A stretch of 33,062 nucleotides of DNA from Deltaproteobacteria bacterium (GTDB lineage: Archaea; Thermoplasmatota; Poseidoniia; Poseidoniales; Poseidoniaceae): NCBI GenBank assembly GCA_028344335.1, contig JAOMAZ010000015.1, positions 1-33,062 of the forward strand. The letters run 5' to 3'. The position numbers and the translations under genes were made by a program. The notes beneath the pieces were generated by a model. It saw nothing but the letters and a program-made list of their open reading frames with translations. It was not told the origin of the DNA and did not search any database. Positions 26,841 through 28,718 of this stretch are shown in pieces (the first letter of the stretch is position 1; each line of letters starts with the position of its first letter).

Positions 26841-26883
26841 GTATTTCTTCGACATCACCAACCCATCGGTGTGGTACCGCAAA

Positions 26884-26901
26884 GGGGTTATCCGAAACCC
26901 C
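26884..26901 (+). repeat. Hairpin GGGGTT-ATCCGA-AACCCC
   Basis: Perfect 6-bp stem, 6-nt loop. Confidence 0.7.
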
Positions 26902-26914
26902 ATCCAACAAGAAG

Positions 26915-26977
26915 AAGCCCTTTGAAATTGTAAATCCGTTTCAATGGGTATTCGGATGAACCCATTCAATACATCCG
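26915..26977 (+). repeat. 63-nt leader element, copy 1
   Basis: 48/63 ungapped identity with the reverse complement of 27651..27713, including a 15-nt perfect match at the outer end. Confidence 0.8.
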
Positions 26978-27025
26978 GGACAGTTTGGAGATGGATTGAA
27001 AAGTGTGAGACCACTTTGATTGTCT

Positions 27026-27175
27026 ATGAAGAGTGGCAAGTGTCCAAAATGTGGCGGCGAGAATATTACTATACCTAAGAGGCGGAAAAGGACTGTACGA
27101 CATCAGGCGTGGAAGTCAGATGAATATTTATGCGGAAATTGTGGATACGTTGAAGCATATCGAAGAATGAGTTAA
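27026..27175 (+). CDS. 49-aa zinc-ribbon protein
   Basis: MKSGKCPKCGGENITIPKRRKRTVRHQAWKSDEYLCGNCGYVEAYRRMS; CPKC...CGNC pair; not in the supplied ORF track because of its length. Confidence 0.6.
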   Translation: MKSGKCPKCGGENITIPKRRKRTVRHQAWKSDEYLCGNCGYVEAYRRMS

Positions 27176-27182
27176 TTGGTGC

Positions 27183-27255
27183 GTTTCAAAGGGTTCCCCT
27201 CTGAAACACCCGCATTGTATAGGGTATCCATCTGAATGCCCCCGTTTACGAGGGG
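27183..27255 (+). repeat. Three imperfect ~30-bp palindromic repeats between convergent ORFs
   Basis: AAGGGTTCCCCTCTGAAACACCCG / TAGGGTATCCATCTGAATGCCCCCG / GAGGGGTCCCCTTGCAATTT; GTTTCAAAGGGTTCCCCTCTGAAAC is a 10/11-bp stem with a 3-nt loop. Confidence 0.6.
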
Positions 27256-27267
27256 TCCCCTTGCAAT

Positions 27268-27606
27268 TTACTCTTCACCTGAAAGTTCATCTTGAGGTTG
27301 AATTAACATTCTGTAGTATTCAAATAGGTAGAAAATTAGTGACAGCAAGATCAATATTGCAGAAATAATCAAGCAAACAAGCAATGCCATTCCTTGACCA
27401 AAGCCACAATAAAATTGTCCATAGCATGGATTGAAATGGAAGTATATTTCATACCCAACAATCGAAATTAGTGATAATTCAGCACCAGCAAAAAAAGTCC
27501 AAAATGCATATTTGAAATTTCTTTTCTCACGAGTATAATCCTGTATCATTTTTATTAGAACTAATTGGATAAGAATACCAATTATCACATAACCAGAAGT
27601 TTGCAC
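27268..27606 (-). CDS. Small three-TM membrane protein, unknown function
   Basis: 112-aa ORF with strong hydrophobic segments and charged tail; GTG start. Confidence 0.5.
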   Translation of the reverse strand: MQTSGYVIIGILIQLVLIKMIQDYTREKRNFKYAFWTFFAGAELSLISIVGYEIYFHFNPCYGQFYCGFGQGMALLVCLIISAILILLSLIFYLFEYYRMLIQPQDELSGEE

Positions 27607-27650
27607 AATTGATGTTTCAACACTACGGAGATAAACATGCCTCCGTTATT

Positions 27651-27713
27651 CGGATGAATTACAAGGTTATATCCAATTACTCATTAAAACGGAAATTGAA
27701 TTTCAAAGGGCTT
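27651..27713 (-). repeat. 63-nt leader element, copy 2 (inverted)
   Basis: See 26915..26977. Confidence 0.8.
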
Positions 27714-27764
27714 TGCGTGGGTCATTTTAGACGCTACCCTTCCAACTGAAGGTTCTGGAACTGA

Positions 27765-28718
27765 TTATTCCAAACCTTCCAATTCATTGATGGCTTTAGC
27801 AGCTGCAACGACATCACCGTCTTCCCACCAATCAACAGCGATGAAGGTAGGGCGCTTGCCGTGTTGTTGCCAGCATTCAGTAGAACGTTGAATAAGGAAA
27901 TCAACGTTGTTGGCTTCTTCTCCTCGTGAGGGGTCAGAAAGGCCTGCGGGGCCTCTTAACCAATTGTTCATGTGAAATACTTCTTGTTGGATATCACCGC
28001 GTAAAAGATCGCAATTCATGTCCTCAGTGTTTTCTTCTGCAAAATTTGTTGTCCAACTGTGAGTAAGGAAATCATGAATCCAAGGGTGCGATGCATCCTC
28101 GCCCTGCTCCCAAAAGACAACTAAAGTGGTATTCTGGTCAATCATTTCCTGCAGAGTTGGCCAAGGAGAGTTCATTTCATGGAATAACACTTTATCGTAC
28201 AGGTTGGATTGTTCAAAAACCGCGAGTAAATGGTCCGGTTGCACATAGTTTTCAACCAAGAGGGTCACAATATCTCGTGGACTCTGTTCCATTTTTTGGT
28301 GCAAACTCGACAACCAAGCAATTGAATTCACGTTCCCATAGGTGCAAGGACTGAATCCACGGTCATCGTCTCCGTGGCAAAGACGTACGGTTTCAATTCG
28401 TTCATCGCCTAGTATTTCGTAATGTGTGTCAATCATGAATGCACGCATTCCAGCATCCCATTGGGCATCAAGTCCTGTACGATGGTTACTGGCTGGATAA
28501 TAGATTCCGTCTTGATGGGTAGAAAAGGCGTTATGCGTTTCAGGGAACGTGACGTTGTCGTAAGTTCTCAAGCATAGAATCAACAAACCGTTGCATGCTT
28601 CTGTTGGTACTTCTGCCTCTTGGTCTTGGACCATTGAAGGCGTGTCTACGGTTGGTGCTAGACAGCCTGAACACAGCATGACGAGAGACAAAATCACGGC
28701 TGAGAGTCCACCTCGCAT
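27765..28718 (-). CDS. PI-PLC-like phosphodiesterase lipoprotein
   Basis: Lipobox LVMLCSGC; FPETHNAFS...GLDAQWDAGMRAFMIDTHYE...ETVRLCHG matches the PI-PLC X-domain pattern. Confidence 0.75.
   Translation of the reverse strand: MRGGLSAVILSLVMLCSGCLAPTVDTPSMVQDQEAEVPTEACNGLLILCLRTYDNVTFPETHNAFSTHQDGIYYPASNHRTGLDAQWDAGMRAFMIDTHYEILGDERIETVRLCHGDDDRGFSPCTYGNVNSIAWLSSLHQKMEQSPRDIVTLLVENYVQPDHLLAVFEQSNLYDKVLFHEMNSPWPTLQEMIDQNTTLVVFWEQGEDASHPWIHDFLTHSWTTNFAEENTEDMNCDLLRGDIQQEVFHMNNWLRGPAGLSDPSRGEEANNVDFLIQRSTECWQQHGKRPTFIAVDWWEDGDVVAAAKAINELEGLE

Follow-up and report, generated by a model that had tools for sequence, protein, structure and literature searches.

Two inverted copies of a structured element in the window, as we call the whole 33,062-nucleotide stretch of DNA analysed here, are very likely the two ends (W1 and W2) of a small mobile cassette unit carrying a zinc-ribbon ORF and a membrane-protein ORF. 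Read from sequence, such ends bound one- to two-gene cassettes that appear to circulate between genera of marine archaea, and the family they form seems to be previously unrecognised; a literature search, most subscription papers lying outside its reach, found no published description of the cassette system. All genomes compared are MAGs, and genomes, contigs and loci are cited by our own G, C and L numbers.

The first-pass annotation of this DNA had reported that positions 26915-26977 match the reverse complement of 27651-27713 at 48 of 63 positions without gaps and with a perfect start, each copy at a similar distance before a small ORF. Realignment returned the same 48 identities, the first 15 bases being identical, and a random-window control supports the match: the best match of the same 63-mer in random windows had a mean of 32 and a maximum of 37 identities (n = 200, first-order Markov), and BLAST within the genome gave E = 7.7e-7. 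The spacing also held, at 48 nt from the W1 copy to the ATG at 27026 and 44 nt from the W2 copy to the GTG at 27606. The pair is real but was incompletely delimited: the minus-strand copy is longer than 63 nt and extends to a TA at 27735-27736 (GGG-TA-GCGTCTAAAATGACCCACGCAAAGCCC...), and the plus-strand copy is missing ~30 nt at its outer side, where a minus-strand fragment of another copy (26879-26918) is joined to it head to head. A covariance model, R1, built from other copies together with W2, scores W2, which was in its training set, at 84 bits and W1, which was outside it, at 53.5 bits. The features of the unit are as follows.

26873..26878, no strand: GGTACC, resembling the centre of an unoccupied target (sequence compared with empty sites)
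26879..26918, minus strand: fragment of another end copy (3' arm of hairpin 1 plus hairpin 2; AACAAACAG-type), from comparison with the copies in L110 and L113
26915..26990, plus strand: W1, truncated unit end, R1 model positions 31-106 (53.5 bits)
27026..27175, plus strand: cargo ORF, 49-aa zinc-ribbon protein
27185..27265, no strand: palindromes (GGGTTCCCC and GGGGTCCCC types) between the two convergent stop codons
27268..27606, minus strand: cargo ORF, 112-aa membrane protein
27638..27736, minus strand: W2, intact unit end (attachment arm or terminal inverted repeat), made up of TA-GCGTCTAAAATGACCCACGCAAAGCCC, hairpin 1 and a TTGGAT...ATCCGAA hairpin (R1, 84 bits; sequence)
27735..27736, no strand: TA dinucleotide, putative crossover point and duplicated target dinucleotide, where homology with genome G002 ends
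27737..27756, minus strand: chromosomal half-site (B-type arm), AGAACCTTCAGTTGGAAGGG-TA, 3' of a 317-aa gene, assigned from the B-arm consensus

The unit is best read as decayed, with one good end (W2). Model positions 1-30 of W1, the outer ~30 nt that include TA-GCG, are missing, and with this outer end lost the whole unit has probably ceased to be mobile. The search match to the minus-strand fragment beside W1 spans 26879-26903, and the GGTACC that adjoins this truncated fragment looks like an unoccupied target centre. An ortholog of the zinc-ribbon protein in L008 is 74% identical, and the end upstream of it keeps its outer part (33 bits). A Pfam scan of the 112-aa membrane protein returned no family over the cut-off. 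The palindromes at 27185..27265 resemble those found upstream of TA cores elsewhere.

A genus-wide DNA search found further copies of the element beside other genes. R1 matches 62 of 76 genomes of the family, in 11 of the 11 genera sampled; across the phylum 84 of 392 sampled genomes match, 83 of them in the order Poseidoniales. Ends are ~100 nt long and are laid out as TA-GCG...GACCCACTGAAAGCCC, a hairpin, and TTCGGAT...ATCCGAA, which in aligned copies resolves into TA-GCG, a subtype-specific spacer of 9-11 nt, GACCCAC(T/G)(G/C)(A/C)AA, hairpin 1 and then TTCGGAT...ATCCGAA. Hairpin 1 has a fixed length of 33 nt and the form CCC-N-stem...stem-N-GGG, and its pairing is kept via two-sided (compensatory) changes, as at column pair 43/55 (AU 5, CG 4, UA 2). 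The covariation score of the hairpin structure is 0.226, compared with 0.128 +/- 0.023 for shuffles and at most 0.079 for slid controls. Energy-based folding of individual copies yielded only weak z-scores (-0.1 to -2.5), and the evidence for structure is accordingly the covariation rather than the energy; a structural role of the conserved hairpin, as DNA or as RNA, is possible. An Rfam search of the element gave no match near threshold, and a search of viral contigs with one exact 19-base core pattern found 0 carrying it.

We also noticed a second class of ends (TAGGAACGAATAGGACGGACTGCAAACCC; TAGGCAGTGTACTGGGGGACTGAACACCC) at L008:3355, L008:6863, L035:941, L234:3940 and L236:2813. Its types, TAGGAACGAATAGG... 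and TAGGCAGTGTACTGGGGGACTG..., are hardly detected by R1, and our unit counts are accordingly lower bounds. Palindromes of the AAGGGnCCCTT type, with a CCC...GGG hairpin following them, occur 3' of cassette genes, immediately ahead of the TA that comes next, and such palindromes also stand upstream of TA in L095, L110, L112, L121 and L126.

The arrangement of ends and genes was read in regions from 20 places. Single genes and ends take turns in L112, L113, L126, L117 and L118, and in L108, L111 and L116 inverted ends enclose one or two genes; clustered ends are spaced 0.46-2.3 kb apart, the two ends of one unit can differ in subtype, and joined end-to-end copies sharing a TA occur at L119:5513, L237:5491 and L293:200. 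Transfer between genera is seen in cassettes that genomes of different genera or species share. One, shared by G002 and G015 (different genera), is 94.4% identical over 657 bp, beginning at the T of TAGCG, and another is 99.4% identical over 1602 bp between G071 and G059; further shared cassettes were found in the pairs G006/G016 and G008/G071. In each case the match runs rightwards from the TA, or from within 4 nt of it, and the left flanks are unrelated. The G002 contig that carries the G015-shared cassette (C66) is, elsewhere along its length, 92% identical over 1373 bp to G003, of the same genus as G002, which argues against mis-binning. Within L008, two copies of another cassette start matching exactly at TGG[C/G]TAG.

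The boundary of the window unit was located by comparison with G002, a genome of the same genus. Identity between the two is 94% across the 317-aa gene (27765-28718 of the window, minus strand), and homology continues for 22 nt past its stop codon, including the B-type arm (94% identical up to the core), before diverging at GGG-TA-GCG. What G002 has at that TA is a different end with a RibD-like gene (RibD_C in the domain scan); the window has W2, the membrane ORF, the zinc-ribbon ORF and W1, after which homology to G002 resumes beside an Rpb6-like gene.

An empty site was sought with a joined-flank query run in 143 genomes, which returned one locus that is filled in G045 and empty or different in most genomes. 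The neighbours of the G045 insertion are, we presume from reading their translations, DsrE-like and aminotransferase/desulfurase-like genes. The empty site in G065, the closest species to G045, reads AAGCAGAGGG-TA-CCCATTGATTAG, and the filled site in G045 reads AAGCAAAGGG-TA-GCGATGAAACTGACCCAC...CAATGCTAACGC-TA-CCCATTGATTAG. The G045 unit measures 1773 bp from TA to TA, begins GCG and finishes CGC, and has inverted ends; the TA equivalent to window 27735-27736 is doubled in the filled site. G045/G065 is the only pair informative on both sides, the spacer in other genomes being shorter or carrying other sequence. Between the same two genes in three more distant genomes (L177, L178, L179) there is ~210-230 nt of extra sequence in place of the unit; it is unrelated to the ends and holds a small ORF that, by reading of its translation, we take to resemble an Smr-like domain.

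Left-flank queries, run in 171 genomes, extended the TA boundary to many sites. In six further ortholog pairs flank homology stops at the TA (+0-4 nt), making seven one-sided cases with G002/window. Palindromic sites were seen in two genomes without the unit, ACAAAGGG-TA-CCCTTTGT in G128 and AGACGG-TA-CCGTTTG in G136; for the G060 and G013:C28 units only one flank was read, their contigs ending inside the unit. The target consensus, CARNGGG-TA-CCCNYTG, is itself palindromic and ~14-16 bp long. Individual palindromic targets include CAGAGGG-TA-CCCATTG and GCAACGG..CCGTTGC. The base before the TA is G in 38 of 51 ends, and the B-type arm approximates C..w...(A/C)A(T/A)GGG. Another recurrent arm before the TA, GTATACCCTTnCGTGAGnAACTCACGCGT(C/G)GG, was noted in L083, L088 and L110.

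The window unit itself encodes no recombinase. Serine recombinases (PF00239) are present in 12 of 73 family genomes, and members of one clade of ~262-aa proteins are encoded within end-bounded units, or immediately after an end, in G020, G013 and G037. Across the order, with diverged relatives counted, 33 of 320 genomes carry the ~262-aa recombinase, and they span 13 of the 22 genera and both families. In a core clade of 14 loci (at least 54% identity and at least 200 residues), 11, drawn from two families of the order, have an upstream end that points the same way as the gene, with ~210-750 nt between the end and the catalytic motif. Chance placement was estimated at ~0.2-0.3% per gene, with as many as ~16 ends detected per ~1.9 Mb. 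At the remaining three core loci the gene is at a contig end, the contig is 1.7 kb long, or a joined end pair lies ~1.5 kb away. Two recombinase genes sit behind second-class ends. In G158 the arrangement is complete: a 2568-bp unit with two inverted ends carries the recombinase 157 nt inside, between palindromic flanks, TCATAGGG-TA and TA-GCCTATGA. No R1 end was found near the diverged recombinases of G319, G236, G277:C4, G216, G065 and G163. Inside the unit on G013:C28, L114:967-1173 encodes a remnant of the recombinase N-terminus, with the frame lost after QVDEGV, that appears to be a decayed autonomous copy.

The recombinase contains the catalytic domain (PF00239, 111 bits) and the first half of PF07508 (3-53 of 102), and the catalytic motifs YxRVS, DRxFR and EMERG are invariant in 6 recombinase proteins. 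It ends after ~72 residues of recombinase-like domain, and the C-terminal zinc-ribbon and coiled-coil part is absent. The best NCBIfam match is to the N-terminal half of CcrB, far below the cut-off; the best PDB match is the TP901-1 catalytic domain, and the best hits are serine integrases. An AlphaFold model is weak (mean pLDDT 62.5), its better stretches being confined to parts of the catalytic and winged-helix domains; its Foldseek matches are likewise serine integrases, which agrees with the sequence and adds little.

Enzymes of the serine integrase family cleave DNA at a central dinucleotide. They join a palindromic attB to an attP that is longer and pseudo-palindromic, and the two attP halves come to lie on either side of the insert (PMC3783163). 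There is a strong case that the units integrate by a serine-recombinase-type reaction of this kind at the palindromic TA site, leaving TA at both ends. The two inverted ends would be equivalent to attP half-sites, and CARNGGG-TA-CCCNYTG would act as attB. A unit would be excised as a circle with joined ends of the form ...GGGCTTTCAGTGGGTC...CGC-TA-GCG...GACCCACTGAAAGCCC...; the recombinase would pair this junction with a chromosomal palindrome (..AGCAAWGGG-TA-CCCWTTGCT..), cut with a 2-base TA stagger and rejoin, and single-site recombination at the central TA would place a TA at each end of the unit. The enzyme is most likely the ~262-aa serine recombinase acting in trans, encoded by some units (autonomous) and not by most. 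The circle, the reaction itself and use in trans we infer from the arrangement of sequences; genomes with the recombinase (33/320) are far fewer than genomes carrying ends, so that one has to suppose that the enzyme acts in trans or was active in the past. In same-orientation arrays the ends lack an inverted partner, and each cassette seems to extend from a P-type arm as far as a B-type one; such arrays do not follow from simple attP x attB integration. A broader proposal, drawn by analogy, is possible but somewhat doubtful: that this is a second, independently evolved integron-like cassette system, in which single genes with a structured recombination site at their boundary would accumulate in arrays, circulate between Poseidoniales genera and depend for their movement on a small serine recombinase that is supplied in trans and crosses over at TA, the hairpins contributing to the choice of site as those of attC do.

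For the inverted pair the first-pass annotation had preferred a shared promoter, leader or ncRNA element pairing the two genes, and had offered terminal inverted repeats of a small mobile unit as the alternative, to be recognised by an empty-site alignment; it is the alternative that stands. In that alignment, G045/G065, the unit is inserted with its TA doubled, and the breaks of flank homology at TA and the inter-genus cassettes that begin there point the same way. That the copies are promoters, leaders, cis-acting elements or small RNAs, the synteny breaks being merely intergenic, would suit the fixed distance to both window ORFs and the compensatory changes in hairpin 1. We consider it very unlikely and reject a promoter or leader on two grounds, gene orientation and the clean empty site: the nearest downstream ORF has the same orientation as the element in 28 cases and the opposite in 21. 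Copies also lie in many genera beside unrelated genes, synteny breaks at them, Rfam holds no match, and cassettes 94-99% identical in different contexts start at, or at most 4 nt from, the TA.

Doubling of TA, inverted ends and hairpin-rich ends are also what non-autonomous DNA transposons of the Tc1/mariner/IS630 type (DDE) would show, inserting at and duplicating TA with terminal inverted repeats. This explanation is unlikely, if less so than a promoter: no DDE family was among the matches listed for 36 cargo proteins (25 of 28 matched families), the enzyme repeatedly found inside units is a serine recombinase, and the units target a palindrome of ~14-16 bp, not TA in general, with ends that may differ in subtype within one unit. 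The least probable of the three, to which we give very little weight, is that the ends are integron attC sites or those of a diverged integron, the arrays being CALINs without an integrase. Integrons are present in other archaea (PMC9668308), and one-gene arrays with hairpin sites between the genes recall them, but the integron integrase IntI (TIGR02249) is over the cut-off in 0 of 57 genomes, inspection of a set of element sequences by eye showed no RYYYAAC/GTTRRRY pair, crossover is at TA, and unit ends are inverted on both sides where attC stands on one side only. Integration of the units by a serine recombinase is the preferred reading.

Poseidoniales, which are uncultured, rank with the most abundant archaea in the surface ocean. 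A family-wide cassette system whose ends, target and candidate enzyme are mapped would provide a tangible route by which genes move and strains come to differ among them. Many contigs carrying ends stop within or close to those ends, and for many ends the contig finishes no more than ~250 nt away (e.g. the L102 5' end, L099, L094), which suggests that strain-level variation at end sites breaks assemblies. If active, the enzyme would be a serine integrase of unusually small size whose palindromic target is defined, and its size would bear on how much of the large C-terminal part integration needs.

In large serine integrases this C-terminal part, a zinc ribbon and coiled coil, sets site choice and directionality (PMC3783163). 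The recombinase matches TP901-1, A118, Bxb1, phiC31, the enzymes of staphylococcal Ccr cassettes and Tn4451/TnpX in its catalytic domain and the start of its recombinase domain, and the units share with elements moved by large serine integrases a dinucleotide crossover, a palindromic attB and inverted attP halves as ends. They differ in the ~262-aa enzyme, which has neither zinc ribbon nor coiled coil, in a crossover TA that is itself palindromic, in a cargo of one or two genes mostly without recombinase, and in many scattered sites and arrays per genome; the ends, moreover, are ~100 nt long with conserved hairpins, and known serine integrases need neither a hairpin nor upstream palindromes. 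IS607 has a small serine transposase with a 2-bp crossover, and the units would likewise pair a serine recombinase with a 2-bp crossover. Unlike IS607, they have a palindromic target and long inverted ends, no N-terminal MerR-type domain was seen in the recombinase, and the NCBIfam IS607 model matches its catalytic part only, at 24-31 bits against a cut-off of 110. IS200/IS605 and REP/RAYT elements also have hairpins with a mismatch near the foot and a GTAG-containing motif, scattered intergenically; we rejected HUH/RAYT ends because the Y1 transposase (PF01797) is found in 0 of 73 family genomes, with 5 of 14 control genomes positive, and the doubling of TA on insertion is a further difference. 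The Charybdis elements of Poseidoniales are ~4.6 kb circles of ~10 genes, of which several integrated copies lie next to tRNA genes (PMC12324425); they are mobile elements of the same archaeal order, and tRNA-targeted islands of this kind were rejected since size and site differ. From integrons the units differ in their core, in probably using a serine rather than a tyrosine recombinase and in having ends on both sides, and it is integrons and archaeal CALINs that they resemble in their arrays of one-gene cassettes, short foldable hairpin sites, broad unrelated cargo and sharing between genera.
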